Below, in pieces: positions 1 through 27,000 of a stretch of 27,089 bases of DNA. Position 1 is the stretch's first letter. Each line of letters starts with the position of its first letter. The position numbers and the translations under genes were made by a program. Origin of the DNA: Irineochytrium annulatum (lineage: Eukaryota > Chytridiomycota > Chytridiomycetes > Chytridiales > Chytridiaceae); the NCBI GenBank assembly GCA_027600665.1, contig JADGJL010000279.1, positions 1 through 27,089 of the forward strand. The letters run 5' to 3'. Under the pieces are notes generated by a model that saw only the letters and a program-made list of their open reading frames with translations, did no database searches and had not been told where the DNA came from.

Positions 1-2222
1 ACCCCATCCTCCCCATCCAGCCGCGGCCCAAAACCATTTTTGGCCAGGATCGACTCCCGCAGTCGATCGACCGGCTCGACCTTCCACGTGCCCGTCGACA
101 TCGTCCGTCTTATGACGGGCGGGCGTGCTGGCGTGCCGTCGTCGGCCTCGTCCGTCTGTCGCTTCTTCGGGTGGTCCTTTATCGCCCGGTCCCCATTCAA
201 AAAGGGCTCCGCGTTGTCGTCGTCGCCCTCCGGTGCGTCCTTCTTCGACGGGGCATGGGTGTCGTCGTTGGCAGCATCGGCGGTGGCCTTCCGCTTCGAC
301 TTCGGCGGTGGCTTCAGGAAGTCGCCGTTGACAATCGGTTGATTAAGGGCCGGCGAAGGCTTCTCAGCCTTAAGTGGCGCCGCCTCATCATCCTCGTCAT
401 CCGAATCCATGATCCGCATGCTTCTTCGGCGCTTATGCGTTATGCCGTTGATCAGCGCCTTCTCAAAAGCATCTTTTCGCACCACAAACGCGCGCTCGAC
501 CTTATCGCTGACATGGTCGCCAACCAGCCTCGACTTTGGTGATAGCACCGCCTTTGCCGTACCCAACGTCGCTCCGTTAGCACCAGGAGCGTGAGGCGTC
601 GCGCTGGACAACTTTCCAGCGCTGTAGAACGAGGGCCCGTACAATACTAGGTCCTTCGCGCCCTTTTTCACGATCCCGGCGTTCATATCAACCGACTTCA
701 GTTTTGTATCCAAATCGGCTAACGGAGACTTCTTATGCTTCGATACCTCTGCAACCTCAACCTTCATCGCCGGCTTCGACCCGGGTTTCACCTCAGCTCC
801 TTTGGCCCCGATGAACGCATTGACCTTGGAAGGCGGCACGGTCTCGTAAAAGAGCATGTACGCCTTTTGGTCGAGAACCGTCTTCTGGCTTACTTGCCGC
901 ACCTCTGAATCATTCATCAGATACCAAAGCCCGTTCGATGCCTTAATGTATGAGAAGTAGTGGCCGGAGTGAATTCCGTGGCCAGAGTGCACGAGGACGC
1001 CGATGAGGGTATACGTTCCAGCGGCTTTGTTCTGCCATTGTTCGGTTAGCATGATTAATGATGCACAAATTAAAGACCTTTGCCGGCTCGCACAAGAAGG
1101 GCCGCACGTCCAAAGCGATAGGAAACTTAATATGCCGGTCAATTTTCACGCTGCTGATGCCGAAGTCAAATCGCTTCAAGTGTAAAACGAGCACCAAAGG
1201 CGGAGTCGCTATTCCCAGCTTCTTCTGAGCGTCAACCAGCACTTTGCATCTTCCAAATTTTTAAAAATTTTGCACCCGCGACTTCCTAATACTTACTTCG
1301 AACACCGATATCGGTTGTCCTTTGTCAGCAGCTCGGGCTTTGTGAAGTGTCTGAACGCCTTCTCCAGGGTTTCGCACTTTTTGATCTCCAAACTAATATC
1401 TAGGACCGTCTCCGACGTGTTTGAGGGATGGCCACATTTCATACATTTGACCTGACTTTGAAGGTACCCGCCGAAGATCTGATGGATGACGGTTTCTTCC
1501 TTAACCTTCTCCTCAAGCCTGAAGGACGGGCGGAACCGTGAGTCGGATAGTCAGAAGCGAGTGGCGACAACTTACTTCGGATGCCCTGCCAAACAAGCTG
1601 TCTGTAAGGAGTCGATGAAGCAACGAAGAAACTCATGAGAGTCCTCTTGTCGTCCAATGCGCAAATGCTTTGAAATCGCTAAGATTTAGGTCAGAAACAG
1701 AAACACCTGCCAGACCAACCAACATTTTAGTCTGCTCACAAGTACTTTGGGGCTGACGACGCGTGCCTTTGGACCTTCCCCAAGGCACCGAACGACATGC
1801 GTCTCCAGGTCGCAAAAGGTGCAAGTTCCAGATTTCTGGCCTGTACAGGATTAGCATGGGTTACATAGAAGAAGAAATGAAGTTCAAAACGAATTACGCA
1901 GCACGATTAGATACTCACATGTTCGACTATGTGATCTCTCAAGCAAGTAGCAAGCGAGTGGCGGCGTGTATGTCAAGCACTGCAACACACTGTTAAAGAA
2001 ACAGGTGTTGCCGAGGTTCGAAAGGCCCGGGCCTATGGGCAGCGTCTCCGGCCACGTCAGATGAAGCCTCTCACGCGGGAAAACGGTGTGCCTGCGGCCG
2101 CCGTGATCGCCGGCGCCGCTCACCGCGCCTTTCCCGGCGACTGACACCTCGATGCGGGAGACGTCGACCCCTGGGCGCGTCGTCTCAACGAAAGTAATCC
2201 GCCGCTTCAGAAGAGGCTCCAT
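1..2222 (-). CDS. Ubiquitin carboxyl-terminal hydrolase, USP36/USP42 type (3' end cut by window edge)
   Basis: Cysteine protease that removes ubiquitin from proteins; the closest animal relatives, USP36 and USP42, act in the nucleolus and nucleus. Exon 1 (2222-1919) carries the Cys box [18 protein letters not shown] with the catalytic Cys. Exon 2 (1840-1724) has a Cys-rich stretch. Exon 3 (from 1678) carries [17 protein letters not shown] later exon has [17 protein letters not shown], and with CSKC after the next splice this supplies the two Cys pairs of the USP zinc-binding fingers. Then come [10 protein letters not shown] and the His box [15 protein letters not shown] followed by LMNDSEV (catalytic His and Asn/Asp). 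At least five introns were placed, for example AAG|GT near 1095 to AG|AAC near 1050. After the protease domain, a long Lys/Ser/Asp-rich tail stays open from about 850 to position 1, so the C-terminus lies outside the window. The start is the first Met of an open frame. The family is secure; the USP36 versus USP42 assignment is inferred. Confidence 0.9.
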
Positions 2223-2504: not shown

Positions 2505-5229
2505 ATGTCGTCGCAAACACCACTCCAGTTCTTTCAGAACATGAACTTTGGCGGCTTCGGCTCTGGGAAGAAGCCGCGGGAGCGGGCTCATTTGGTGCAG
2601 AAGTTCCAAAGGGCCTGGTGCGTGGGAAACAGCCTGAAGCTCACTTTTTAGTCCTAACGTGATGATATATCCTCTATAGGGATTCTATTATTATTGACTA
2701 CCAGGTTAGGATGATCATGACAGGGAGCATCTTACTGATTCTGCCAGACGGAGAGCAACTGGACAAAACACGTCTCGAACACGGATATTATCAAAAGTTT
2801 GGAGACAATGGTTGATATCCTGGTGAAAGAGCATGCAATTATGGATGGAGGCGTAGAGCCCGGAGGCTGCACGGAGTTGTTCTTGAACGACGACATGATG
2901 GCGCAGTTGGTAAAGATATCGGAGAACGACGTCCCGCTCGGGTTTCGTGGCGAGGTGATTCGGTTCCTGAACAATCTTGTCGCCGTGTTGGACTCGAAAT
3001 TGATGATTCAGAACGCAATACACCGGCCGACGCTTACACTGATTCGGCTGTGTTTGGCAGACAAGGAGAAGAAGTATGAGGATGAGATGCTGGAGCTTGA
3101 GTACGACATTGCAGCAAAGATCCACGAGTACCCGGAATTGCTGTACATCTTCTTCATCAAGACGTTCGTGCCTCGGAACGTGTCGATGGAGTCGTTCAAC
3201 GCGGGCCAGGCTTTCACGTCCACGGCATCCCTCGTCCCTTCCCGATCATCGACCACCTCGGCCAGTAAGCTCGACCAGATGGACGGCGTCTTCGAGTTCT
3301 CGCTGTTCGAACATCTTCTGCGATATGTTCACCTCGAGGGACATCGGGGCGACTTCGCGAGAGAGTCCTGCTTATTTCTGATAGAACTGGCGACAAACGA
3401 CCTGGGGACATACATCGCGTCGTCCGAGTTCGCCTCCGTTGCGATCGCGGGGCTGGGAGGGCTCTACTCGCAACTGCCTCCGACGCTGCCTGCCGGGATC
3501 TCGTGGGGCGACCCGATACGAGGGTCGCTGAGTACGACGGTGATCAACCGAAGGAATCCTTTGGATGTGTTCATGAATGATATGGACTCCTTCATGCGGC
3601 TGGTGCGGTTTGTGCAAGGAATCCTCCTGAAATGCCCGAGTCATAAAATCACCACTGCTATGCTGAACGATCTGAAGCACACATTCCTCGACAACATTGT
3701 TCAGTCTTCAATCACAAGCGCGAGCGATTTCGACGGCACGACGGTTACCGCGCTGTACTATATCCACCAGATGCTGCTCGCTATTAAGGAGGATCAACTC
3801 TCGACCTTGTTCGCCGTGTTTTTGTTGAGCGGGGACGACGACGATGATCATAACGGCTCGAATGACGGGAAGCAGGAATCTGGCGCACCGGACAGTGCAG
3901 GAAAATCCCCAGCAGCAGGACATGGGAGTCAGGAGCTCCGGCTACGGCCACGCGACATCTTGATCTCGAAGCTCAACTCCCTGTCGGAGGAGGTCGTAAC
4001 GGCGACTTTGAACCTCTTTCAAACACTCCTCTCCCACCACTCCGTCCATTCCCTCCACCTCCTCATAGAGCGCCTCCCCGCACCAAAAGGCGGCCACAAC
4101 TCATACTCCTGGGACCCGAAGAGCCAAGCTGGTTACAAGCGATCCGTTGACGCCATCTCGACTGACATTCACGATCACCTCTCTATGGTTGCGCGGTATT
4201 TCGCCCTCGTGCCGCCCGAATCATCACTGCCGATCCCTTCACTGACGCCGCATGACATGACGCCGAACGCGGGCGGCGGGCTACCGGAGGAGACGACTCT
4301 CGGCGCCTACCTGACGGAGGCCGAAACGGTGATGAAGTCGCACTCGAACCGGCATCAGCGGGCGCGGGCCGCCCCGCCCGTCATCACATCTCGAATGTCA
4401 TCCCTACCGTCGACCTCCCAGATCCAGTCTCCGACCGCCACTTCGCCCGCCACGATTCGGAGAGCGCTTGGAGACTCGGACGCGGATGTGGGTGGACTGC
4501 TGGATGCGAACTCGCCCGTGAGGGAGGCGATGATCGAGTTGGGGAAGGACGTAACGCTGCGGAAGTTCCTGGGGAAGTTTTCAAACTTCTTTAGCCACTC
4601 GTACGAAATCAATCTTGTGAGGATTCCTTTTATGATCGTCATTTCGTCTTCGTTCCTTCCCCTTTGTCAATTTCTTTGCGCCGTTAGTGTGGACGTTTCG
4701 CGGTTCCGAGTTGTGACAGCGTCGGCCTCTAATGTGCTTTATTTTCGAAGGCGTTAACAGGCGTTATCTCCCACCTCGCCGCCGCCCCTGTTCCCCTCCT
4801 CTACATGTATCTTTACGCGTCGGACGTGCTCCTCGGACCCTCGTACTCATCCCTCCACACGGTGCTGGTTCGGCTGCGGCGGGAAGTGGAAGAGCGGCGG
4901 GCGACGATTCGCGGCTTTGACGAATCGCTGGCCAGGACACGGGAGCAGTTGTTCAAATCTGGTCCATCCGCCATTGTGACATCTTCGGGGACGTCGAGCG
5001 GAGACTGGCTCCGGGGTCGGAAGGAGGCGGCCGCTCGCGAGAGGTTGGCCTCGTCCATGGGCGAGTTAGATCTGGATGCGGAGTTTCTTAAGAATGTCGT
5101 GGTGCTTGAGGAGGCTGTAAAGGAGTTGTTGGCGATCATCGTGATGCATGGTAACCTATTTCGTTGCCCGCGTATTTACTAAGAACTTTTGAAGGTTCTC
5201 GCGAGCACGATCAGATTTATTACCTATAA
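2505..5229 (+). CDS. FHF complex subunit, HOOK-interacting protein (FHIP / FAM160 / RAI16 family)
   Basis: FHIP proteins join FTS and HOOK in a complex that links early endosomes to dynein for microtubule transport. The model has five exons: 2505-2617, 2680-2704, 2748-4616, 4751-5150 and 5195-5229, giving 813 residues with all phases consistent. The N-terminus reads MSSQTPLQFFQNMNFGGFGS, and conserved family stretches follow: a helical block with EVIRFLNNLVAVLDSK and NAIHRPTLTLIRLC, then CLFLIELATND with a GLGGLYSQLPPTLP segment, then NLFQTLLSHHSVHSLHLLIE, and after the third intron NLALTGVISHLAAAPVPLLY, the C-terminal signature of FAM160 proteins. An Asp-rich loop (DDDDDH) and Ser/Pro-rich linkers separate the helical blocks. 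The large exon stays open through the 134-nt third intron, so a naive frame would end at 4757. The splice 4616/4751 restores the family C-terminus and is strongly preferred. Presence of the full FHF pathway in this organism is inferred. Confidence 0.88.
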
Positions 5230-5377: not shown

Positions 5378-6073
5378 TCATTTGCCTCCCTTCTTCCCCT
5401 TATCCCCCTCCGGCATGCCAATCTGCTTCTTGATGGAGATCTCTGTTATTCTTAGACACGTGTGGTGCGGCCTGTTCCTAACCACCTTTATATGCCCATG
5501 CCTCTTCCAGTGACGCCTCACCACCTCCCCACCGACCGTATGCTCAATCACCACAGCCTTCACCGTGAAAAAGTCGGGCCTCACGTACGGGTTTCCCTGC
5601 AAAATGTAATCCTCCCCGCCCAACTCCCTCACGCGGTCTAGCTCAATCTCGTCCCCCAGCTGCAGCTCGTTCATCCTCATCGTCACGATGATGTCGCGCG
5701 CGCGCACGTGGTAAGGGCGCGACTTGATCTCGACAATGGCGTGGTGGTTCCGCTGCTCCCGGAGCTTCGCCAGCGCGTCCAGAGTGGATTGCGACCATTG
5801 CGTTGGAGGCTGATATTCCGACAGCGCCTGCTGATGCGTTATTGCGAGGGGTCCTTTTCGTCGCGTCGGGGTTGCGGGCTTGGCTTTCGCAGGGTCGAGG
5901 ACGGCGGTGGTCTTCTTCCACAGCTTCCGCCGCCGGACCGCAGGCTCGTCCAGCAGTCCATCCAAGGATTGTGGAGGCTTCGGCGGCGGCGCGGGATTCG
6001 AGGAGGCCTTGGACACGCATCGTCGGGAGGTTTGGACGGCCCCGGCGAGGGTCGGCCGAGTGCAGGCTCGCAA
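5378..6073 (-). CDS. Mitochondrial large-subunit ribosomal protein bL21m
   Basis: Structural protein of the mitochondrial 54S/39S ribosomal subunit. It is a single exon of 231 residues. The first 60 or so residues are rich in Arg, Ser, Ala and Pro with no acidic run (MRACTRPTLAGAVQTSRRCV), consistent with a mitochondrial targeting sequence. The bL21 fold occupies the C-terminal 100 residues: LQLGDEIELDRVRELGGED is the family's 'vGd.i.ldrVl.vgged' motif, then VRPDFFTVKAVVIEHTVGGE and the basic RRHWKRHGHIKVVRNRPHHT, which matches the rRNA-contacting 'kyrrrk.yrr..gHRq..T.l.I' segment. It ends in a Lys/Gly-rich tail. It is convergent with FHIP, with 148 bp between stop codons. The start is the first Met and gives a plausible presequence. 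Confidence 0.9.
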   Translation of the reverse strand: MRACTRPTLAGAVQTSRRCVSKASSNPAPPPKPPQSLDGLLDEPAVRRRKLWKKTTAVLDPAKAKPATPTRRKGPLAITHQQALSEYQPPTQWSQSTLDALAKLREQRNHHAIVEIKSRPYHVRARDIIVTMRMNELQLGDEIELDRVRELGGEDYILQGNPYVRPDFFTVKAVVIEHTVGGEVVRRHWKRHGHIKVVRNRPHHTCLRITEISIKKQIGMPEGDKGKKGGK

Positions 6074-7704
6074 CAGCGTGGGGAGGCGATCGACTGGAGA
6101 AAAAACCCGGATGACATTAGCGCGCTATATCCAGGCAAACGAAGGATCCATACCGAGCATCGCTACTCTTCGCTGTAAGTGATAGCAAAATGCCTGTACG
6201 TCGAATTTGACGTCCCGCGACTTCCACTGCTGGCCTTTCCCTTCGAAACTTCGTTGATCTTTTTCAACCGCTGCTTTAAAAAGATTATTTAGTATGAAGT
6301 CTACCCACTTATTACTTGCGTATTCTTTTATTACAAATTCATGTCTCCCAGTATTCAGGGAATGGGCCGAATCGTCCAAATAGTAAACGCAGAACCAGCG
6401 CCGCAAAGTGATGCGACTTGTGATTGCCGCAGGTTGTCCGATGTCCAGTGTCAGCTGTTTCCTTCGTCTTTCTAATATGCACGAACTCGGCTTCGTTCAT
6501 CCTTAGTATTTCAGGCGGCCTCCGTGAGCCCCTGTGCTGCACGACAAAACCTCAGCACAATTTACTGCCTGCTCACAGGGGTCTGATAGCGAAGGCAAAC
6601 AGCAATGATATGACAAGGCATATTGGGTGGCGTAAATCTGCCACCGCAGGGGTGCGCGACAGTTAGCGAGGCTTTGAATTTCGATTTGTGGTCGTGGTCA
6701 CAGGTGGCATGCATCGGACCTTTTTTACTTTGGGAGTCACGCGTATAGTCTGTACGCGTGAACGCGTCCACCCGGCGCGTTCACGGTGGACGCGTTGTTG
6801 GAGTGCTGTTGGGCACAATCCCCATTAGCATTGGTTTCCCATACGTAAAAGCAATGATGACGCAATGCAACTTTTCCACCTTGCGCCTGCTCGGCGTTGT
6901 GCAACGTTATTTTACTTTTCCCTTTGCACCGGAAGGAAACTTCGACGTTTATCTTGAAAAACAAGGTCGTGTAGACGGCGCAGAGCTGCACCGCTTAAAT
7001 CTACTGTCGTTATGTTGGATTTACTTTATGTGTTATTTTATTTTTTTGGCCAGAAAAGGACCGTCGTTCTTGCTCGAAGCGTGTTTTTCATATGTAAAAT
7101 ATAGTGACTATTTCGGAAGGAATCTCCAGAAGCTGCTCTGCAGGTTTTAGTAGTGAAATACTTTGTATTTGGCAAAATCCCAACATTCTGTATAGCATTT
7201 GCGGGCTTCCTCGCCTTCTCTCCGGAAATAGAACTCACTTGCGCCGTCTCGCCTCCCAACGCTTTTTGGTCACCACAGGAGCACGGACCCAACGTCAGGA
7301 TAACCGTCATCCTCCCGACCCCGTCACCCCGACATCCGCCGACGTCCTCCTAATTGTCCGGGATCCCCCAACTAGCCCGTCGGCCGCCCCCCGTTCTCCT
7401 CACCTTCACTAGGTGCGTTTGCACGATGTCATGGACTGCGACGCCGCCGGATGACGGGACCTGGACCTCGGATGGACGATCTGGGAACTGGGACTGAGAC
7501 GGGGATGGATCATGGTTGGGGTGGACGCCGGGGAGAATGCATGGCATGTGGGCGATCTTGGGTGCATTGCCCCTGATCCACCCATACGCGGACGCCATTC
7601 ACCCTTGATCGGATCCTCCTTGCCTTCCCTTGCATCATGCTAATCTTGACGTTCCCTTCTTTGATCTCCAGCTTCTCGCGCACTTATCCGCCTCGAACGA
7701 CCAA
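6074..7704. other. 1.6-kb interval without a recognisable gene
   Basis: Open frames here are short (up to 130 codons), overlap one another on both strands and show no family signature I recognise. The longest are 6125-6406 on the minus strand, with Trp/Tyr-rich content (WFCVYYLDD), and 6758-7150 on the plus strand. The left part is the likely promoter and 5' UTR of the bL21m gene, and the right part (from about 7400) that of Rac1. A pyrimidine-rich stretch ending in CTCCAG at about 7673 could close a 5'-UTR intron of Rac1. A cluster of ACGCGT boxes lies at 6739-6796 and is listed separately. A small exon-split gene or a decayed mobile element cannot be excluded. Confidence 0.5.
6739..6796. 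promoter_or_regulatory. Cluster of four ACGCGT (MCB-like) boxes within nested inverted repeats
   Basis: ACGCGT occurs at 6739-6744, 6754-6759, 6762-6767 and 6790-6795, with a near-match GCGCGT at 6775-6780. AACGCGTCCACC (6761-6772) and GGTGGACGCGTT (6785-6796) form a perfect 12-bp inverted repeat around a 12-nt spacer. A competing 9-bp pair, GTGAACGCG (6758-6766) and CGCGTTCAC (6776-6784), overlaps it. ACGCGT is the binding site of the fungal MBF/DSC1 cell-cycle factor; use of these copies by such a factor is inferred. The site lies about 0.7 kb upstream of the bL21m start and 0.9 kb upstream of the Rac1 start, so the target gene is unclear. Confidence 0.4.
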
Positions 7705-9635: not shown

Positions 9636-10940
9636 TTAGATCTTCCGATTAGAATACGCCTCACATTTGAGCATCGAAGTCGGGTTAGACGAGTATGTGG
9701 ACGGGCAGACGCGCTCGATCTCGAAGACGAAGCCGAACTTCTTGGCGACGTCCTTGACCTCGTCGAGGGAGAGGTCGATGGAGATCTCGGTCTTCATGCC
9801 CTCAAAGTGGTAAAGCAACGGGCCAAGGTTGATCCATGTGCCGCCTGCTTTGAGTGCTTTAGAGATGACCTCGAGGTAGTGGATAATGTTCTTGGCGGTG
9901 TCTATGAAGTAGCAAGTGACGATTACGTCCCAGGCCCCTATAACCATCGTTTAGCGCCACGAATCCGCGCAAAGAAAGGAAGAGAGATCTGTTTGCAAAC
10001 CTAGCTGGTCCGGATGCGAATACACCTCCAGGAAGTCTCCCGCAACCATACTAAAATCCGCCTTCGCCGGTATCGCCTCCGGCACGATGTCGGGAATTTT
10101 GACGGCCGCCGCTTGGGTCTTGCCCGAGACCTGGTTCGAGAACGTGTGGATCCAAGGGAAGATCTCATGCTTTCCGACGCTCTTAACCGTGTTGAGGATG
10201 AAGTTCGAGGCGAGGAGCATGTAGAAGCTAAACTCATTTCCTTGGACCGTGAAACCCTGAGCGACGATGTCGTAGCAGAGACGACCGAGACCAGCGCCGG
10301 GTACGAGAACGGAGATGGTGCCTCTTTGTGCACAACAGATTAGGACAACTGCGGGATGCATAGTCATGAAGGCCTGTAGGCGAGGCTGACCTGTCGGCGG
10401 GGCGAACATCCTTGAAGCGATCCTTCAGCGCGTCAAGTATCGGCTTGTAGGTCGCATCCCGCTCAGGCCTGCCATCCTCGCTCCAGTCGCGCACAAACTG
10501 CCGAAGCGTGCTCCGGACCTTGTCCATATCGCTCTCCATCACCGTGTCCGCCTTGGCAGAGTTCGCGCCATTCTACAGATCCACACGACCCTTAGATATC
10601 CGAACGCGGTCAGCGGAAGTTCGTCCCGCACCTGCTGTGATGCCTCGATTTCATTGATGTCATCCGTCCCCTCCTGCGCCATGACGATCGCCCGCAGAAA
10701 CTCCCCGTTTCTTTTTATCTTCTCATCGACGGCGTCGAGCCTCAAGCCATATCCCGGCGCGAGGGCCCGGTGCGCGGCTGGGATGGAGCACCAGTCTTTC
10801 CGCCGCTTCTTGGCAGCCAGGGCCGTGTGCGACGGGTAGTTCAGGAAGGCCCTGAGGACCTTGTTATACATGCGCGACTCGTTCAGGTGGTCATCGGCCG
10901 TCTCGTTAAAGCCATCACTTGTAGGAAGGTGGGGAAACAT
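9636..10940 (-). CDS. Carnosine N-methyltransferase family protein (N2227 domain)
   Basis: SAM-dependent methyltransferase; characterised eukaryotic members N-methylate carnosine to anserine, while the fungal substrate may be another small His-containing molecule. The model has four exons: 10940-10632, 10572-10391, 10323-10001 and 9937-9636, giving 371 residues. The N-terminal helical part reads HLNESRMYNKVLRAFLNYPS. SAM motif I is ISVLVPGAGLGRLCYDI, followed by the family's GNEFSFYMLLASNFILN. A second conserved block is FSMVAGDFLEVY, and the C-terminal half has WDVIVTCYFIDTAKNIIHYL and GGTWINLGPLLYHF, the 'GGxWiNlGPLlyHf' signature of N2227 proteins. An in-frame TGA lies five codons upstream of the chosen Met, which supports that start. 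Length is close to the human enzyme. The family call is secure; the physiological substrate is not shown by the sequence. Confidence 0.93.
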
Positions 10941-11135: not shown

Positions 11136-12737
11136 TTAGTATCCACCAAGCTTCTCCAGCGCCCGCACACCTTGCTCCTCCCACTCCCGCTTCGTGACCC
11201 AAAAGCTCTCCTTGTTTTTCATGATGTCACCAAGGACGGCACCTCCAAGGAAGACCATGTGCTTGCGGCGAGGAGGGTCTTCCACCCGAAGCTTGAAATC
11301 CTGCGAGCAAGGTTAACAGCTGTTCAAAAAAGCCTTTTTAAAAAGAATGAACCACCTTAAGCCTCGACACGTCGTTCTGAAGAACTTTTTCCAGGTACAG
11401 GGCTTTTAGCTCCTTTTCTAGCCGGCTAGGAAGGCCGGGATACATCGAGGAACCGCCCGAAAGGACGATATGCTTGAAAAGCTCTGGCCGAATGTCGTAC
11501 TCCGCAGATTGAATCGACGAGTACAGAAGGTCTGATGGAAGGAGGTAAGAAACATGCAACAGAGCCATCGAATGTAATTAGTAACGCACCGGCAAGACCC
11601 GGGGTTTCGACATCAACAAGTTCCGGCTTGAAGAGTGCTTCCGGTGCCGCGAACCTCTCCGACCCAACCTTTATTACACGGCCATCCGGGAGCTGAAAAC
11701 AAGACCCCATCGTGTAAATAAGCCGTGAACGGAATAGCATCATACCGTGTAGGACTCGACCAGAACGGTGGTTTCTTGCGCAAGCCTCTCCTCCAGCTGA
11801 AGATCGTAGCTTTGCGAATGTTAGATTTCAGTGTGCGACCCGAGACATACCCGACGTAGCAGAGCTTTTCCTTCACCTGCCGAACCGTCTCGAAATCGGC
11901 TGTCCGGTTAAAAGCGTAACCGCGGAGAAGCAGAAGCTTAATGAGGTATTTGGTGATGTCCCGACCAGCTACGTCCAGCCGCCTCACCAGGTGAGGGAGT
12001 GCAAAACCCTCGTACACGGGGACGATGTGCGTCACACCGTCGCCGGAATCGACGACCACACCCGTGAGAAGACCTGAAGCATAAGAGTAATTAGCTCGCT
12101 GTCTGTAACACGTTCGACATCCCACCTTGCGCGTAAAGGGTAAGGACGGCCTGGATCGCGACGTAGACGCCGTTGAATCCGTAGTTTTCAAACATGACCT
12201 CGCACATCTTCTCGCGGTTCTTCTTCGGGTTCATAACGGGCTCCGTGAGCAGGATCTTGTGGTCGGCCGGGTTCGTGATCCCCAACTTCTGCGAGAATGT
12301 GTAATCCCACAAGTGGATCATGTCGTCCCAATTCCTAACAATCCCGTTCTCCATGGGATACGCCATCTGCAGCATGCTCCTCGCCGCGGCCGCCTCGTCC
12401 CCGACCATGATGTCCTTCAGCTGGAACTCGCTCATGCGCTCCTCTGCCCGAAGGATTGGCCGCCCGACCACGGCCTGGAATATGCAGTCCGGGAAGTTTG
12501 TCCCGGCGAACCCGGCCTTGACGAACTGGATGGGATCGTGGAAGGGATGTGTAAGTTATGCATGGTATCGCGAGTGATCCACGCCGCTGATCGCGATCTC
12601 GAGATCCACGCGCTCAGGCCGCGTCCACAGCGTCCCTCAAGCGCTCCAATGCACACGCCGTCCGCACCGATGAAGGCAGCAGTACTGACCCCTGTCCCAT
12701 TGTCGCAGATCACGACCTCCTTGGAACCAGGCGCCAT
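11136..12737 (-). CDS. ARP2: Actin-related protein 2 (Arp2/3 complex subunit)
   Basis: Arp2 pairs with Arp3 to mimic an actin dimer and nucleate branched filaments. The model has seven exons: 12737-12690, 12525-12126, 12073-11851, 11809-11746, 11692-11590, 11531-11356 and 11300-11136, giving 392 residues, the usual Arp2 length. It starts [16 protein letters not shown], the phosphate-1 loop of the actin fold, continuing after a 164-nt intron with [20 protein letters not shown] and GRPILR, typical of Arp2. Further landmarks are [16 protein letters not shown], the phosphate-2 loop [37 protein letters not shown], and the end [18 protein letters not shown]. The first intron is the longest in this gene and stays open, so a frame reading through it continues 53 codons beyond the true exon with no actin similarity. 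It is head-to-tail with the methyltransferase gene, with 195 bp between its stop and that gene's start. Confidence 0.95.
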
Positions 12738-15834: not shown

Positions 15835-17062
15835 CTAAACCTTCACGTTTTTCATGTTGGCGACCAGGTCGTCCACATCATCATCGTCCGCCTCCTTCGC
15901 CGCGCCATCACCACCCTCGTCCTCATCCTCCTCGTCCTCCTCCTCGTCTTCATCGAAGTCCATCTCGTCCAGCTCGTCCAACCCATCCGGGAACCCTGCG
16001 GCGCGGAGGAGACCCTGGATTGTCTTCACCACCGCGTTCTTGGGTGAAAACGAGTTCCCGTTCAGCGTCAACGTCCCCAGCTTCGGCTTATTCGCCAGCA
16101 GCGCGGGGATCAACTCCACACCCGCTGCATCCATCTCGTTGAAGTGAAGGTAAAGGGTCTCCAGCTCCGTATGGTTCGGTGTCAATGCCTTCAGAACGTC
16201 AATCGACCCCTCCTTCTGCAGAAGGCAATCGCCGACGTTCAACTGCTTAAGCTTCGGCCATGACGGGAGCGCCGACGCGAGGGCCTTCGAGCCGACAGTT
16301 GTGAAGGTGTTATCCTGCAGATCGAGGACTTCCAGGTTGACACATCCAGCAAGCGCCTCCATCAACGTCGCGATGCCCTCCGGGCGGATGCTGTTCTGCG
16401 GCATCCGGAGCTCCCGCAGCCCAACGAGAAGGGAGAACGCCGTGGAGAGATGACCAGCGCCCTCCGCCTCCATCCGGTTGCGGCCCATGACGATCGTGTG
16501 GAGCGAGATCGTCGTGTTCGCCGCCTTGGCCTTCTCGACGGCCTCGGTGAAGGCCGATGAGATCAGCTTCGCGCCACCAATGCCTAGGCCGTTGTTGTGC
16601 AGTCGAAGAGTTTCGATGGAGCGGTTGTTGATGATGAGATGCCGCAAGGGCTCGGCGCCTGCGGGCCCGAATGCATTATCCGACAGGTCCACCTCCCGCA
16701 GCGTAGTCTGCAGCATCGTCAGTACAAAATCAAGCCCAAGTGGCAGTACCGTGTTGACTAGAGCATCCACAAACGCATCCAAGGCAGGAGGAATCTCTTC
16801 TTTCAAACGGCCGGTGAAGATGTCGCTTAGATTCGCGCTCTGCATCCAGTCAGTTCTCCGCACATTGCCACGGGTGACTCACCGTGATGGTCGGCGCCTT
16901 CTTCAACGATGCCGCCAGCGCCTTTGCGGCCTCAACTCCAATTGTGTTGCCTCCGAACTGGATCTCTCTCAGGTCCTTGACGGCCTCAATCTGCGTGACG
17001 ATCTCGGCGGCGTCGGCTGCCGTGTGCAGCTTCAGCTGCCTTGCCCCAATCTTGAATGACAT
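15835..17062 (-). CDS. Ran GTPase-activating protein (RanGAP / Rna1)
   Basis: Cytoplasmic GAP that stimulates GTP hydrolysis by Ran and so maintains the RanGTP gradient that drives nuclear transport. There are two exons, 17062-16883 and 16839-15835, with a 43-nt intron, giving 394 residues (fission yeast Rna1 is 386). The protein is a chain of RanGAP-type leucine-rich repeats: LREIQFGGNTIGVEAAKALA, NLSDIFTGRLKEEIP, LREVDLSDNAFGPAGAEPL, IETLRLHNNGLGIGGAKLI, LRELRMPQNSIRPEGIATLM, LEVLDLQDNTFTTVGSKALA, and LGTLTLNGNSFSPKN. Asn ladder residues and the NNGLG segment of RanGAPs are present. The C-terminus is strongly acidic (DEMDFDEDEEEDEEDEDEGG) and then stops, without the SUMO-accepting domain of animal RanGAP1, which favours a fungal-type protein. 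Confidence 0.93.
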
Positions 17063-17179: not shown

Positions 17180-19211
17180 CTAGAGACTTCGAAGCCTTTC
17201 GAGCATCTCAACAGTGATAGAATCCATAAACGGGTCGTTGGCGAAAACGATCTCTTCCACCCGAACATACGACCCGGCGATCATCTTCTTCGTCAGCTCC
17301 TGTGCCAGCACCGACGTCTGACGCTTCAGCTTTGGGCTAGCGCTATGCACAGGCACCGCAAACGCCCTAGTGAAGCCGTTTAGTACGCGACAAAACTGTT
17401 AAGATGTATACGTACGTCGTAGCAGTCTTCTTGGACACGTCCGTCATGTTGTGGAGTCGGTTGCGTTCGCTAAGCTTTATCAACCCTTCCGTCTTGGCTT
17501 GTAGAGCTTTCTTTTTTTCTTGATTGAGATCGTCCAGCCGACCAAGCTCCTCGCGGAGCTTTTCTATTTCATCGGTGTCGTTGTTTTCTTCCGCTTCATC
17601 GAGTAACCGCTTTAGTCTGATTTTCTCCGCGGCAATATTTGTCGGCTTGCGCATGACCTCTTGCTTGGCTTTAAGCATTTCGTCGATTTCAACCTGCGAC
17701 GGCGTTAACCATGATCACCGAGAGCAATAGGATGGGATGAAGAGAAAAGGCGCTACGAAAAGAGTAAACACGAACATTGGTAAAAGTATGCTTTAGCTTG
17801 TCTTGAAGTTGCCTGGCCGATACTCTGACGCTTGCGGCCGATGGAACCTGCTCCCTATCTACCTCGCAAGACCGTATATACCTCGTCAGTTCCGCCTATA
17901 ATAATTAGATTGTTACAAACACCCTATCCTACCTCCGTGATATGTGAGTTTGATATCAAGTCCATCGTAAACGCCTTCCGTGACTTTCCGTGCTGCAAAA
18001 GCAAGCGCTTCCTCGTCGCCGTTTGGCCAAAAGTGTACACCTTGTACTTCGACGTCTCGTGTTGCCGCTTCTCATTCCCAAGTGAGACTAACTCGGACAC
18101 ATCTGCGCAAATGCATGACTAAATGCACAAGATTTCTATCTCCATACCGGCGATTCTTGCGAGTCGGTAGTTTGCTTTCCCTTCGCTCTGACCGACGCTT
18201 AACCGAACAAAACAACCTTCGGAAGGCATTAGACAAATGCTACACGGGGGTACCAGTGGACCTGTGACTGCCTCCTCAAAAAAGTTTGCGTACACGATAC
18301 GCTCTAACTCGTCTCGAGTTATCGTAGCGGACCGTACGTCCTCTAACGTCAGGACGTCGGACGCCTTATCCTGCGTGGATGCATAATCAAGACCTCGCAA
18401 TAATAGTACTCCGAACCTCTGTCGTCTCATCTTTGTAAGACGGCTCCTCCGACTCACCGGCTTCATCGTTCTCCTCGTCCTCGCTGTATTCAGCAAACAT
18501 CGCTTTGGACGTTCCCGGATCAACATCCTGGCACTCTTAGAAAGACAATTAACCAATGACATACCTTCTTCAACGTCTTCTCATCCCTGCGTTTCTTCAA
18601 CTTTTGCAATGACTTCGACTTGCTCGTCTTTGTTGTGACAACAGTGCGCGATGATATTCCTGCGGCGTCAACGTACAGAATTTAAACACTACAAACCTAC
18701 TCCTATCTTGTTGTAACGGCTTCAGCTTCTTTTGAACTTCCACTCGATCTAACACGTTTTGCCGCTAGAGTACATGATGATTACTTGCACGCCATGCAAA
18801 ACGCGTTATCTACCTTCTCCGCGCGCTCCGCAAGGATTTGTTCTCGCTCCATTTCGGTCATCATGCTCAGCCTAAGCGTCGTTGTTCAACGAAGGCCCAG
18901 CAGCAACGCGACAAACGAACACACGCACCGTTGTCTATCCTCATCGTCACCCATCAAGTCGTCCCCCCACGCGCTGACTTCCTTCAAGTCCCTGTCCTCG
19001 GCCGTCTCGAAGTCGTCCTCATTCTCCTCGCCCTCCTCTATCGAGTCCCCATCTGAATCGCTGAAACCCCGCGATTTCCTCCTGGAACACCTTAAGACCG
19101 GTGCTGAAGTAATAAATAAACGCACAGCTTGGTTTCCCGCTTTCGCTTGGACGACCGGGCGCGCGGGTCGGCGTCAGTGGTGAGGGCCAGCAGTTCTTGA
19201 TCCAGATCCAT
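17180..19211 (-). CDS. RTF1: RTF1, Paf1 complex subunit with Plus-3 domain
   Basis: RTF1 rides with elongating RNA polymerase II, binds Spt5 through its Plus-3 domain and promotes H2B ubiquitylation. Twelve exons were traced by hand, giving about 490 residues. The N-terminus MDLDQELLALTTDADPRAR matches fungal RTF1 starts. An acidic Ser/Asp/Glu region follows, then LSMMTEMEREQILAERAEK, matching the histone-modification-domain vicinity. Lys-rich sequence leads to the Plus-3 domain: LEDVRSATITRDELERIVYA (about 18350-18290), CFVRLSVGQSEGKANYRLA, then KYKVYTFGQTATRKRLLLQH and AFTMDLISNSHITEAEL. A coiled coil (EKIRLKRLLDEAEENNDTDE) and a short C-terminal helix (DPFMDSITVEMLERLRSL) finish the protein. 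One intron near 18565 is only 37 nt with the chosen acceptor. RTF1 is divergent from NUP98-96. Confidence 0.9.
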
Positions 19212-19556: not shown

Positions 19557-22500
19557 ATGTTCTTTGGCGGTGGAGGCGGCTTCGGCCAGCAGCCGCAACA
19601 GCAGCAACCAAATACGATGTTTGGGGCCAGCGCAACCACGAATACACCGGCTTTCGGTGCGAACACAGGTTCGTTCCTCTAGATTACGCGCTGTCCGGAT
19701 CTTGCCCGCCGGCGAGACCGTCAATGCGGCGCTCTGTTAACGTTCGCGTTTGCTACGATTACGAATAGGTGCATTCGGTGCCGCGCCCACAGGATTTGGT
19801 GCCGCCCCGGCGGCTGGGATGACGGGTGCTTTTGGGCAGCCCGCGCAGACCACCTTTGGAGCCACTGGTGAGAACAGTACCCGTCGGCGCCATACTGACA
19901 TCACCTTAGGTGCGTTTGGAGCGCCGGCAGCGCAGCCATCAGCGTTCGGAGCCAGACCGACTGGATTTGGGACAACGACAAACCTTTTTGGCGCGCAACC
20001 AACCGGGGGAACGACTTTCGGTGGAGGTTTCGGAGCTCGTAAGTGTTACGCTTATGCGACGTCTGTATGATCAATGTCTAACCGATACAGAACAACCTGC
20101 GGCCAGCACAGGATTCGGCGCACCGTCTACAGGAGGGTTATTTGGCCAGAGCAACCCTACCACCACTTCGTTTGGCGGAACCGGAATGACGTTTGGGGCG
20201 GGGACAAACACAGGCTTCGGCGGCGCTGCGGCTCCGTCCGCTTTTGGGGCTCAAGGGACGACAGCATTTGGAGCCCAGGGGGGTTTGCCGCCCAATAATG
20301 GAACCGGGAATCCTCCGTATCAGACCACAAAGGACACGGAGCCTGCTGGTATCACGCATTTCATTGCTATCTCTGCTATGCCTCAGTATAAGGCGTACAG
20401 CTGGGAGGTTTGGATTCTGTAACTCGTACAACCGTTGATTTTGCTTTAGGAACTAAGGCTGCAGGACTATCAGATGGGCAAGAAGTTTTCTCAAACGACG
20501 GGACCAGGCTTCGGAGGAGCGTTTGGATCCATGGGCCAAACGACTTCGAACACCTTTGGCGGTGGAGGCTTCGGCGCTGCAGCCGCTGCTCCGACCACGG
20601 GGTTCGGCGCTACTTCAAACTTCTCATTTAATTCACAGCCTACGGGTGGAGGTCAGTAAAAAATCGCGCGTGCTGGTTTACTAACTGCTTTTGAAGGTCT
20701 GTTTGGTGGAGGTAACGCTGCAGCCCCGGCAGCCAATGCTTTTGGTGCAACAACAAACACATTCGGCGCCAATACTACGGGTGGTGTCTTTGGCGGGGGA
20801 GGAGGTGCTTTTGGGCAACCTCAACAGCAAACTACTAGCACCTTTGGCAGCGGCGGATTCGGTGCGGCTGCTGCGAAGCCGGCCTTTACTTTTGGAGGTA
20901 AAACGAAGCTTTGCTTTTGTTTCTTAACTATAAATTAGGTTCTAATACGACAGGCGCTTTCGGAGGTGGGACCACGAATGCGTTTGGCGCAGCGTCGAAC
21001 CCTACCGGAGCGTTCGGGGCTCGCCCTAACAATACGTCGCCTTTTGGACAGCAGCAGACTCAACAGCCTTCAGCGTTTGGAGCATCAAACGTCTTTGGAA
21101 AGCCACCAACAACTGGCGGCGGTCTCTTCGGCAGCACTCGTACGAGTTGTCTTTTAGTTGCAACCTAATCGTTCTTTAGCGGCTGCACCAAGTTTATTCG
21201 GGAACACTCAGCCGACGACAACCGCCCCTTCGCTCTTTGGAGGTGGAACATCGGGGGGCTTTGGAGGGACCAATACGGGCACGAGCTTGTTTGGCGGCGG
21301 CCAGACGGCGACCACTGGATTTGGTGGTGGTACCGGATTTGGAGGCCTGGGGGCCAATACAGCAAATAAACCTACTACAGGTCAGTGTAAAATTGAAGTA
21401 AGATGCCTGTGCTGATGGCGTGCAGGTCTATTTGGAAACACCGGCGGAATGGGAGGTGGTGGGTTTGGAACTGGCGGGAATCTGTTCGGAGGCAATACGC
21501 AGCAGCCAACCAGTTCTTTTGGCACCGGTTTGACGAATACGAACACAAGCTTTGGCGGCCTCGGCACAGGCGGCGGGTTTGGCGGTGGTGGGTTGTTTGG
21601 GAATACCCAGGGGACAGGGAACGCATTCGGCGCCAGTCAACAACAGCCGCCCTTGACGGCATCTATTGATAAGCAGCCCTACGGATTGAACCCGTTATTT
21701 GCGAACACGCCTGCAAAGACCGCCGCGGCGTCGACGAGTGGTCCGCAGGTGTTCTCCATTGCGGCGACGGAACCTAAGAAGCCAGCCTTACTCCCGCACT
21801 TTAAACTCACTCCAAAGAGTGCCAGCAAAATTAAACTTCGCGGTTTTACCCCGTCGCCAATGGTCCGGGACTCGCACTCCCTACCTCTGCGTGACGCTAC
21901 GCCTAAAGACGGTCTTTTGAACCTGTTAAAGCCCGAATCAGATGACCCGCTCAGCCGCGGATTTCCCGAATCTTTCAAGCCTCGCGCGAAGAAGCTTATT
22001 CTGAACAACAGCGATACTCCGGCCCATGGGGCTGTAATTCGTTCGACTACGCCAACAGAAACGCCGGGAAGCACTCAGAAGTCAGTTCGATTCCATCATG
22101 ACGGCGAAGTTGATGCTGTTGTTGACGTTACTGCTGACGGTGACGACCGCTCTGCGCCGGGTTCAGCGGTGTCGGCGGGTAGCCGAGTGAGCGAATTGAA
22201 TTCTTCCCCGGGGTCGGCGAAAAAGTCACCCAGCAATGCTCCGACTTCGACGTCGCCGAAGCGGCTGTCGTACAAAATGTATCCGTCTTTGGAGAGGCTC
22301 TTGCAAATGTCAGATGAAGAGCTCACGCGCGTCCGGGATTTCACGGTGTCGATGGAAGGGATGGGGAAAGTAAAATTCCTTGAGCCAGTCGACCTCTTGC
22401 AAGCTTCGCCTACCGGGACGAGGGAAGGCATTCGGATGATACCGGGGACCGTGATTATTTTTACAAAGAGGATGTGTACCGTCTACCCCGACGATGCAAA

Positions 22501-25500
22501 AAAAGACCCTATGGGTGCGGGTGTTAATGTTCGCGCAGAAGTCACTCTGATGAATTGCCAATGCATTGACAAGGCGACTGGAGTCGCTATAACCCGTGAG
22601 AATGACGCCCGTTTGGACAAGTATTATAAGAAGTTGGAGAACATGGCTGGGACGAAGATGTTGGGATTTAAACCCGAGTCAGGGGAGTGGAAATTTGAGG
22701 TTCAGCACTTCAGCCGATACGGCATCGAGGATGACGAGGAGGCGAGCAACTATAAGATGGAGCCGGAGTTGCAGGATCTACTTCTGAAGTCAGATGCTGA
22801 ATTGAGAAGTGTAGAGAACTTTGTTGTTTCCGTCGACGGAGTAGGGAAGATCCGCTACCTCGAGCCTGTCGACCTTCTGCAAGCGTCGCCCACAAAAACG
22901 AGAGACGGGATAGCTAGAATCACGGAAAGCATAATTCGGATAAAGCGCAAAAGCGTTGAAGTATACCCTGACGGATCCGAAGTGGATGCACCCGGTCATG
23001 GTGTGAATATTCCCGCAGAATTAACTCTTGAAAGCTGCTATTGCCGTGATCGCATAACGAGGGAAGTCATCGTCGACTCGGAAGACAAGCGGTTGCGGGG
23101 CTTTCGCTCGAAATTGGAGTGCATGCCTCAGACGGAATTTATCGACTTCGAACCTGCTGATGGCAGATGGAGGTTTCAAGTGCAACATTTCAGCCGGTAC
23201 GGGTTAGATTCGGACGACGACGACGAGGAATACGAAGTTGACGATGCCACAGCAAAGCATGTCAGTTTTGCATCCGACGGTGAAGACCTTGAGGAGGAGT
23301 CTACGTTTCATAACGATTCCTTCGCAAATATTGGAGTTCGTAAAGGGCCCGTGCAACGCGTCAGGGACCTTCGCAAGGTGGCTGTTATGAACCGAATGGC
23401 GGCCGTGCAGACGACAGATAATCTCCTTGATGAGCTTCACGAAGGAGATGAGGAGTTTGAGCCGGCTGTTGAGACTGAGGCTGACGACGACGAAGAGGCG
23501 ATGCAAGAAGAGTTTGAAGTTTCGCCGGAGGAGGGAGAAGCCATGAACCGTTCTTACGAGATGGACGAGGAAACTTTTGAGCGATCTTCACCGGACCTCG
23601 AAATTAGCAGAGGCGGTCACGGCCGTATTGTTCAGACCCAGACTCACCGGGAGCGGGACCAACCCCCGACGGAGCCGTTTCTTCAACGGCCGGTGTCCTC
23701 GCGCCGTTCACAAGTCATGCGCGCCTCTTTGTTCGTGGACGCCGACATCCGCGAGCCGTCAGTTTCCATGTCAAGACCTTTTCTTCCCGTGACGCCAGGG
23801 CGTTTGCGAGTTTCCCCAATAAATTCAAACTCGAAGCGGCCACGTGTGAATCCGGGAGCGGGAGCGGCGATGCCTAAAGACGACGGTATTGAAGCGACCG
23901 CTTTCAACTTCGAATTGGGAAGTCGATCTACGTCGGCCCTGGGTAAAAATGCAGACAAGAGCTTATTGCCGGTGGATCAATTAAAGTCGCGGGGTTTCGG
24001 TTTACCGTCTCCGAGTCCGGAGGAGCGCGCACCTATTCATCGTGTTTCGAGTTCCGCTTTTGTGCGCCCTCCCACTGAGTCAGCTCACGCACATATCCGA
24101 GAATTGCCCTCCTACGCGGATAGCTTAGTTTACGGGCATGAAGACAAATGGGTGGACTCGGGACTCAGTATGGGCCGAAGTTGCCGCGTTGGTTGGGGAC
24201 CGGGTGGTAAATTTGTTCTTACTGGCAGGTGAGATTACTGCCTTCTTTTTACTTCCTTTGCCCTTTGTGTTTTTTTTTGGGATTGATGAGTCCCAAAATG
24301 GAAAATTTATTGGCGTCGAACATTATTGGCGTCGAATGCCTTTACTTAGTACTATCTGTCAGAAATAAATTCACATTTAATGCTTAATTATTTCTGACGC
24401 CTTTTCAAAGGTTTTCTGGTTCCAAGTCGTTGTCCAGGATTGCAATTAAACAGGTCAATTGCTTTACTCGTGAGGTACGGTTAAGAAGCAAATATATTAT
24501 ATAACGTTACTAAGGATCAAAGCCAGTCTCGAGATAACGAGAAGAGCCGGCACGAAAAGCTTTTGAACGTTTTATATCAGAACTCGCGCGTGATTCGTAC
24601 AAAATCTGCGAATGAGGTCAAAGCGCAGCCCAACCTAGAGCTGGAGGCCGAAGCAAGCGACTTGGTTCCAATGGTTATCGTGAATAAGTCTGCGTGTTTT
24701 TCTACTTTTCTTCCGTGCCAAGCTCACACCCCGTCAATAACGAAGACCTCCTCATCGATGTTCACCCGAAGTGCTCCGGAGCCAGCAAGCGTGTTTAGCC
24801 ACCGTGAAACTTTGATTTGGAAACTAGCATCGGCACTATTCGATCCCTTAAATATTCCGATGCCTATCGACGGCCTAAGCCAGCCTGTGGTGGACGAGAT
24901 CCACGCAGGCTTACGAAAGGAGGCAGTTTCATCGTGGTTGCAGGATTCGTATAAGTCATCTGAGGCTACCGGTAGCATGGGAGACAAGATTTTCAGCCTT
25001 CTGTTGATGAGGCAGGTCGGCGCCGCGGTAAAGACCGCTATTGAAGGGAAGAATCTTCACCTGGCCACCCTCATAACACAAGTCAACGGTGCCGGAGCTC
25101 GCGTGAAAGCCTTCCACAGAGCGGAGGGCAGTTTTGTTACTACCAGTCGACATGGGGTTGATGTCGGCGCGGCGGCGTCCGGGCACGGTGTCGCTGGTCG
25201 CAGCGCTATGACTGAGAGGACGAGGGAGGACTTGTGTGAACAGATAAAGGCGTGGTCCTCCGTTCCTGGTTTAATGAAAGGCGATCTTATAAAAGTGTGG
25301 AATCTTCTCGCTGGTGACCCGGATCTCTGGGGTCCAGAGACTTTGCAACAGATTCCGGATTGGCAAAGGACCTGGGGCTTGTTCCTGTGGTACGCTAACG
25401 GTGGAGGTTACACCGTGGGAGAGTCGCTTTCGGCATATGATAGCACTTGGGCAAAGAGCAACCCGATTGCAAAGTCTCCTGTCCCGCCTTACGCGCAGAA

Positions 25501-27000
25501 GCAAGGGAAGGATGTTTCGAAGACCATTCTCGATATGAGTTACCACCTTTTGAAATTAAGTTTTGATCCGAACCACCTGTTGGAGGCTGCTTTGGAACCC
25601 GAGAATGTCTCTTCTGCTAAAATGGACTGTAGGATTAGCTGGCTTATATGGGTGCTCCTTGCTCGTGGCAAAGCACTCCGGGAGTTCAGCGACGCACAAA
25701 AAGCCGTCGACGTTCAACATGCTGGCGCGTATACCCTTGGCGACACCAATGCGACCTCGAAGACTAAGATCGTACCATCAAGTATTGCCGATTCCATGAC
25801 AGCCTCGCTGTGCGAGAACCTCGCGGTATTGGGCCTTTGGCGATGGGCGTGCTTTGTTGCTATGTTCTTGTCCCATCGGTCTGGCAGGGAGAGCCTCGTT
25901 AGAAATCTGTTGGCAAGGTACTTCCCGTACGAGGACGAGGGCGGAAGTTGTGTAAAGGACGTCGTCGCCGGAATATACGCCGACCCAAACCTGAATACAA
26001 AAATGGAGCTTGTCCGGTCGGATGGTATGGAGAAGGTCCTCTTAGAAGATTGCGACGACTACACGTTTATTGTCCACCGTTTGAAAATCCCCGCGCGATG
26101 GGTCCACGAAGCGAAGGTATGGAGGCTTTATAGGTTCTAAGCTAATGCACTTTTAAAGGCGCTTCGCGCAAACTATGAGCAATATCCATGGCGCGAGGCA
26201 ATTAGCTTAATTGACGCGGGGTGTTTTAATGCCGCGCATACCGTTATCGTCTCTGAACTTAGCCCAGACTGTATTATCAATCGTAAGTACCTGCCACTCC
26301 AAAGGATACTAAATGTTCTCATTTGCTATTAGGGAGGTACAAGAACTTAACGGTTATTTTAAATATTTTATCCGACAAGAAAGTTATTGACTGGGAACTC
26401 GGCGGCGGCTTAATCCTTCAATTTATTGTATGCGACCTCGCTCTTCCGGGGCTTATTGAAGCTGGCGATCCGTCCTTGTCTCGCCTTATCGCTCCGATTC
26501 CTTCATTCGGCGAGGATATGGGGGACGGTTCAAACGAGGCGGCCCAGTCGGCGCAAAACGACGCGATTAAAGTCGGTCAGGCTGCTAAGAAGCAGATCCG
26601 GGAGAAATGGGCCCCGCACATGATAAATGTCTTGAATGGGTTGGTGAAAGTTCGCTCGTTGGGCGGCGTCATGCTTGGGAACGGGCGCCTCGATGATCCG
26701 GCGCCAAGAGGCATTGGCTTGGGAGGAATGGGGCCAACCAGGGCGCAGAATAAGGGTGGACGGTGGAGGCGGCCGGAAATTAACCCGAAAGTCTGCGTTG
26801 CCGAGATGGCTCTTAGGATTCTGAGCTATTTTGACGAATGCAGCAGGATTGGCGTTGGTTGTGTGATGGTGAGTTGTGCTTTAAGTGGCGGCGCATAATC
26901 TGATAAATTTTAGCCGGATCACGAACTCCGCGCGAATTTGCCGGTACCCGAGAACTCTGTGACTGCATTATCGACTTCCACCAAGTGGTTTGAAGACTAG
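19557..27000 (+). CDS. NUP98-NUP96 precursor nucleoporin with two tandem autopeptidase domains
   Basis: Precursor that self-cleaves into an FG nucleoporin of the pore channel (NUP98) and a Y-complex scaffold subunit (NUP96). Fourteen exons: 19557-19668, 19769-19867, 19910-20038, 20091-20407, 20450-20651, 20697-20897, 20939-21139, 21180-21380, 21426-24228, 24411-24453, 24515-26116, 26159-26282, 26333-26868 and 26914-27000. They sum to 6657 nt (2218 residues) with every phase consistent. Residues 1 to about 540 are FG/GLFG-type repeats, interrupted at about 187-232 by a GLEBS motif (GITHFIAISAMPQ, then ELRLQDYQ) that binds Rae1/Gle2. Two autopeptidase domains follow (about 770-918 and 930-1078), each ending in HFSRYG with cleavage expected between Phe and Ser. 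Then come an acidic linker, the NUP96 entry motif MGRSCRVGWGPGG, and the helical NUP96 solenoid with DMSYHLLKLS, CRISWLIWVLL and IPARWVHEAKALRA. A single autopeptidase domain is the norm. Confidence 0.95.
20697..21380 (+). repeat. Three consecutive 201-nt FG-repeat exons in NUP98-NUP96
   Basis: Exons 6 (20697-20897), 7 (20939-21139) and 8 (21180-21380) are each exactly 201 nt, start and end in phase 1, and are separated by introns of 41 and 40 nt. Each encodes 67 residues of Gly/Thr/Asn-rich sequence with dispersed FG dipeptides. The sequences are diverged, so common origin rests on length, phase and composition. The preceding exon 5 is 202 nt because it begins in phase 0. Confidence 0.6.
22271..23200 (+). 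repeat. In-frame 480-bp tandem duplication encoding two nucleoporin autopeptidase domains
   Basis: Copy 1 runs from the Tyr codon at 22271 and copy 2 from the Tyr codon at 22751. The His codon of the HFS site is at 22706 in copy 1 and 23186 in copy 2. Both offsets are exactly 480 bp. A hand alignment without gaps gives roughly 75 identical residues of about 151. The longest shared run is LEPVDLLQASPT, with VQHFSRYG shared at the cleavage site. Other family landmarks kept in both copies are VYPD, G-x-GVN and AE-x-TL. Both lie in the same exon. Confidence 0.9.
24229..24410 (+). other. Longest intron of NUP98-NUP96, with internal repeats
   Basis: At 182 nt this intron is three to four times longer than its neighbours. 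It holds a direct repeat TTATTGGCGTCGAA at 24307-24320 and 24323-24336, and an inverted repeat GTCAGAAATA (24358-24367) with TATTTCTGAC (24389-24398), able to form a 10-bp stem with a 21-nt loop. It lies at the junction of the acidic linker and the NUP96 solenoid. Confidence 0.6.

Follow-up and report, generated by a model that had tools for sequence, protein, structure and literature searches.

In Nup98-Nup96 precursors a single autopeptidase domain couples the production of two nucleoporins and anchors one of them, Nup98, at two alternative sites: it cuts the fusion in cis and then holds Nup98 through the N-terminus of Nup96 or the propeller of Nup88 (extract of PMC11148069), the two bindings being mutually exclusive (extract of PMC6553703). 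What would a precursor with two such domains produce? The question is raised by a 27,089-nucleotide stretch of the genome of Irineochytrium annulatum (Chytridiomycota, Chytridiales; contig JADGJL010000279.1, hereafter the window), in whose Nup98-Nup96 gene two autopeptidase domains of the Nup98 type follow one another (D1 and D2), each with an HF/S site, the slash marking the scissile bond. With a probability that we put at roughly 55%, each domain likely cuts its own HF/S bond, and the precursor would then yield Nup98, a free D2 and Nup96.

A tandem pair of autopeptidase domains in one exon

The Pfam family PF04096 (Nup98-96 autopeptidase S59) matched two stretches of the exon open reading frame (ORF) 21416-24229, with a joint E of 1.4e-81. 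D1 scored 147.5 bits (22268-22726, profile positions 3-148) and D2 133.6 bits (22745-23206, profile positions 2-148) against a cut-off of 28.4, and across all 26.9 Mb of the assembly PF04096 matched nowhere else at E <= 0.001. BLASTP aligned the two domains with no gaps and 74 identities in 150 residues (49%), and their starts are exactly 480 bp apart (22274 and 22754). The initial annotation, made from the letters alone, had described copies in 480-bp register, about 50% identical and each with an intact HFS site, and this description held; in our 14-exon model the sites again fall at residues 915-917 and 1075-1077, although the precursor is 2225 residues long and not 2218 as first given.

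The remainder of the gene is that of a Nup98-Nup96 fusion. FG (phenylalanine-glycine) repeats and the Nup96 domain PF12110 occur in one gene, with 55 FG and 5 GLFG motifs in residues 1-770, the last FG ahead of D1 being at residue 555 of the hand-built model. The Nup98_GLEBS model PF21240 scored 20.0 bits (E 7e-4), below its curated cut-off of 27, and the Pfam FG-repeat model gave no match to the precursor. Where Nup98-Nup96 is defined by exactly one autopeptidase domain, this precursor has two.

We considered whether the pair might be an artefact of the assembly or of the gene model, or whether one domain might always be spliced out. The assembly is a draft of 1082 contigs, and the GenBank model of the gene (HK101_006032, matching ours at all 318 residues searched) disagrees with ours outside the domains: it starts just before our exon 4 and omits residues 1266-1446, 1978-2034 and 2198-2225 of the 2225. 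Against this, both domains lie within a single uninterrupted exon (21426-24228) that requires no intron, and the GenBank model retains both. At the DNA level D1 and D2 are 55% identical (62, 67 and 36% at codon positions 1, 2 and 3), and with third positions just 36% identical they are therefore no assembly duplicate. A repeat finder run over 22200-23260 returned one 14-nt pair and nothing else, and the pair therefore does not represent a collapsed or duplicated read. On the codon-position identities we rejected the assembly artefact, and with it the single real copy that had been named as a possible refutation; an artefact of any of these kinds is very improbable. The proportions of nonsynonymous and synonymous differences (pN 0.36, pS 0.77, the latter near saturation) indicate that the duplication is old and that both copies have been kept under selection.

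Predicted structure of the domains

Both domains are predicted to adopt the Nup98 autopeptidase fold. An AlphaFold2 model of D2 with both its tails, built from 19 aligned sequences, had a mean predicted local distance difference test (pLDDT) score of 86.7 and placed a short strand, R1078-G1080, directly after the cleavage site. All 22 Foldseek matches of this model in the PDB (E <= 0.001) were Nup98, Nup116 or Nup145 autopeptidase chains, with template modelling scores (TMt) of up to 0.85 against the solved domains. A model of the D1-D2 tandem likewise gave 22 matches at E <= 0.001, to single autopeptidase domains. The models predict the folds of D1 and D2, not the relative orientation of the domains.

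Occurrence among homologues

The distribution of the double domain was assessed in 97 proteins, collected in three overlapping protein searches (34, 52 and 21 hits, E <= 1e-5) together with the two sequences from the window itself (P0001 and P0002). The searches were word-dependent and length-limited, and the set includes close relatives, for example several Coemansia. When domains were counted at E < 0.1 with a profile made from the family itself, P0001 and P0002 had two apiece and the 95 others a single one, no second stretch appearing in these 95 even at E < 10. At least 160 residues flank the domain on both sides in 66 of these 95, so a second copy there would have shown; the other 29 have shorter flanks. 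Doubles, whose frequency elsewhere had been proposed as a check, are thus uncommon in this sample, and the candidate explanation that they are common elsewhere was rejected on this count. Their absence elsewhere is not proven, because one search missed a homologue (P0047, below) that another found. The arrangement had been thought undescribed, and among the matches listed in a library of open-licence papers, which holds neither subscription papers nor preprints, we found by title or start of abstract no paper on a tandem Nup98 autopeptidase or on a chytrid Nup98.

A split gene in a relative

In Chytridiales sp. JEL 0842, which the initial annotation had not considered, two separate genes are annotated where I. 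annulatum has one, and by its protein sequence the Nup98 terminates precisely at the point of cutting. The last residue of its Nup98 (P0042, 993 residues) is the scissile Phe (RFRIESF at the end), with Ser in place of the His, and a second protein (P0047, 1381 residues) consists of 46 residues, one autopeptidase domain with HFSRYG and then Nup96. No FG occurs anywhere in P0047, including its 46 N-terminal residues. The two genes are on different contigs, 56048 and 86846 long. Two metagenomic proteins, P0043 (KFRIESF) and P0044 (RFRVDHF), end at the same Phe. Since three sequences that are 66-87% identical in the domain share the same last residue, they argue for a real stop codon; the split is seen at the level of protein records, and the N-terminus of P0047 is a gene prediction. 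For P0043 and P0044 the collected proteins included no partner on the Nup96 side.

Conserved residues in the two domains

Conservation was scored against 91 reference domains, that is, the 95 homologues minus P0042, P0043, P0044 and P0047, and the 28 columns at least 85% conserved across them were compared. D1 and D2 each kept 26 of the 28, P0047 24, P0044 22, and P0042 and P0043 18 each; five of the columns lost by the three Phe-ending proteins are lost merely because these end at that residue. The His, Trp and Asn that are invariant in the references (91/91 each) are retained in both D1 and D2, as is HFSRYG.

The Phe-ending relatives provide a natural control. In P0042 and P0043 Ser replaces the His, whereas P0044 keeps it, and this loss in two of the three indicates, at the sequence level, that a redundant site decays. 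The His of P0042 is lost even though its domain is 73% identical to that of P. planicorne, yet D2 keeps HFSRYG at just 48-50% identity to D1 and to the P. planicorne domain. Together with the predicted folds, these patterns suggest that both D1 and D2 likely cut their own HF/S bonds.

Origin of the duplication

In the phylogeny D1 grouped with Chytridiales domains (support 88), and when P0047 was left out both D1 and D2 did so (support 89); the duplication therefore likely occurred within or near Chytridiales. The maximum likelihood (ML) tree joined D2 to the P0047 domain with a bootstrap of 80, whereas an earlier tree placed P0047 elsewhere. The two share nine residues absent from D1 and from seven other Chytridiales domains, against five for the corresponding D1-D2 comparison, both D2 and P0047 being long branches and P0047 a very long one. 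Without P0047 the pairing of D1 with D2 had a support of 43, and the approximately unbiased (AU) test rejected none of six trees (p 0.69, 0.69, 0.44, 0.43 and 0.23, and 0.69 for the ML tree). On the Nup96 tree, a duplication shared by D2 and P0047 would imply several losses, in P. planicorne, in Podochytrium/Obelidium and in P0003, although P0003 has just 38 residues ahead of its domain, too few to rule out a copy further upstream. A common duplication behind D2 and the P0047 domain is one possible reading of these trees.

The D2 branch is longer than that of D1 (0.78 vs 0.34), as would be expected if D2 were a spare that has diverged, performs no function itself and is tolerated since it is cut away; the HFS needed to free Nup96 would keep part of such a domain under selection with no other role required. 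We regard this as improbable, given a pN well below pS, the 26 of 28 conserved positions, the full-length Pfam match and the confident fold, though less firmly so for the surfaces beyond the site.

A proposed mechanism and its rivals

If both domains cut as proposed, the precursor would be cleaved in cis at the two sites to give Nup98 (residues 1-916), a free D2 of 160 residues (917-1076) and Nup96 (1077-2225). The freed D2 would begin with SRYGIEDDEEA, which resembles the start of Nup96, SRYGLDSDDDDEE. Because of this resemblance, and because the N-terminus of Nup96 binds an autopeptidase domain elsewhere, D2 may both plug into D1 and serve as a socket for Nup96, and would so act as an adaptor bridging Nup98 to Nup96. 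Alternatively, D2 could occupy Nup96 and leave D1 free for Nup88/Nup82. Two docking sockets per precursor instead of one would ease the exclusive choice between Nup96 and Nup88/Nup82. A search of the genome for the Nup88 family gave no match, but its controls gave none either.

Several points weigh against this proposal. D2 has Val1007 where 87 of the 91 reference domains have Lys, a replacement that the initial annotation had missed. The tandem model had a pLDDT of 81.7 and a predicted template modelling (pTM) score of 0.59, with no relatives aligned to D2, and mean pLDDT fell to 65 at the linker (residues 917-926) and to 58-66 over residues 987-1016 inside D2. The bridging role is suggested by one line of sequence evidence, the resemblance of the tails, and the predicted N-terminus of P0047 is without the SRYG tail, and for that protein the plugging part of the model would not apply. 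An uncleavable Nup98-Nup96 is reportedly functional in fission yeast, to judge by a title in a reference list, and cutting is perhaps not essential.

Regarding the Lys, P0047 has Ala at this position and P0028, P0049, P0077 and P0078 also deviate, the Lys of P0049 being shifted by one place in a loop where alignment is difficult. P0028 and P0049 carry HFT, and P0077 and P0078 carry HFS. As P0028, P0077 and P0078 keep one or other motif without the Lys, the link between residue and motif is not a strict one. The lack of the near-invariant Lys does make D2 the likelier weak copy if cutting in the cell is confined to a single site, in which case cutting at D2 alone would leave Nup98 with a double docking module, and cutting at D1 alone a D2-Nup96 fusion. 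Docking is moreover separable from cutting: the crystallised chain of yeast Nup116 has NHAA in place of the QHFS of D1, and trypanosome Nup158 is reported to be without the catalytic residues (extract of PMC4758718). HFSRYG is intact in both domains, whereas two of the three relatives with a redundant site have lost the His, and D2 is modelled as well folded as far as its site; we consider cutting at one site a possible but rather doubtful alternative to cutting at both.

Under the two-cut reading, the tandem could be a natural step towards the split of JEL 0842, in which Nup98 is encoded as already ending at the cut. Tandem and split gene together suggest a route from a self-cleaving fusion to two genes, by duplication of the cutter and then a stop codon at the cut. 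A wider proposal, which we advance tentatively and think unlikely to hold in full, is that Chytridiales have a new pore component, a free FG-less domain from tandem duplication that acts as an adaptor docking Nup98 to Nup96 and removes the choice between Nup96 and Nup88/Nup82, with the tandem retained in Irineochytrium and the split completed in the lineage of JEL 0842. A natural double domain would offer a direct test of whether socket sharing limits the pore, with two sockets per precursor and, as a predicted product, an FG-less docking domain set free.

Comparison with known systems

Like human NUP98 and fungal Nup145, the canonical Nup98-Nup96 precursors, the I. annulatum protein has FG repeats, a candidate Gle2-binding-like sequence, a domain with HF/S, an acidic tail and a Nup96 domain. 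The canonical precursor has one autopeptidase domain and two products, whereas ours has two domains and three predicted products. In yeast, Nup100, Nup116 and Nup145N are encoded by genes of their own, all of which include FG repeats. They resemble our case in that one genome encodes several Nup98-type proteins (extract of PMC4758718), Nup116 being without HFS; in Irineochytrium a single chain carries both domains, and the predicted freed D2 would have no FG repeats. Plants show that Nup98 (Nup98a/b) and Nup96 can be encoded apart, and they differ in the distinct chromosomal locations reported for the genes, no tandem domain appearing in the extract concerned (PMC1560137). The solved Chaetomium entry 5hb6, by its title, has the autopeptidase domain joined to the N-terminus of Nup145C. 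JEL 0842 also has two autopeptidase-domain proteins, one a Nup98 and the other carrying the domain directly before Nup96; there the two are separate proteins from different contigs, and the site is present only in the Nup96-side domain.

Features of the locus and neighbouring genes

Table 1 Position, strand and basis of assignment of the features in the window
Feature	Positions	Strand	Basis or remark
Nup98-Nup96 gene	19557..27000	+	14 exons, hand-placed GT-AG introns; precursor 2225 aa
Nup98 FG-repeat part	19557..21628	+	candidate Gle2-binding-like sequence from ~aa 201, across exons 4-5
D1, first autopeptidase domain, aa 771-920	22274..22723	+	Pfam, BLASTP, genome profile search, tandem model
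Predicted cleavage site 1, H915-F916/S917	22706..22714	+	sequence; H in 91/91 reference domains
Acidic tail S917RYGIEDDEEASNY, would-be N-terminus of freed D2, Nup96-tail-like	22712..22753	+	sequence
D2, second autopeptidase domain, aa 931-1080	22754..23203	+	Pfam, BLASTP, AlphaFold2, Foldseek
Val1007 in D2, replacing near-invariant Lys (D1: Lys847)	22982..22984	+	Lys in 87/91 reference domains
Predicted cleavage site 2, H1075-F1076/S1077	23186..23194	+	sequence, conserved columns
Nup96: acidic tail S1077RYGLDSDDDDEE, then PF12110 Nup96 domain	23192..27000	+	PF12110, E 2.8e-52
Ubiquitin carboxyl-terminal hydrolase	3-1145	-	Pfam
RAI16-like	2739-4757	+	Pfam
Ribosomal L21p-like	5378-6124	-	Pfam
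Carnosine N-methyltransferase	9951-10424	-	Pfam
Actin-family gene, two exon pieces	11613-12555	-	PF00022
Leucine-rich-repeat (LRR) protein	15835-16878	-	Pfam LRR matches; no NCBIfam match
Plus-3	18119-18580	-	Pfam

Two of the neighbouring genes could be described further by eye. The actin-family gene looks like an Arp2-like actin-related protein. The leucine-rich-repeat protein looks RanGAP-like and would then be a Ran-cycle factor encoded near the nucleoporin gene.

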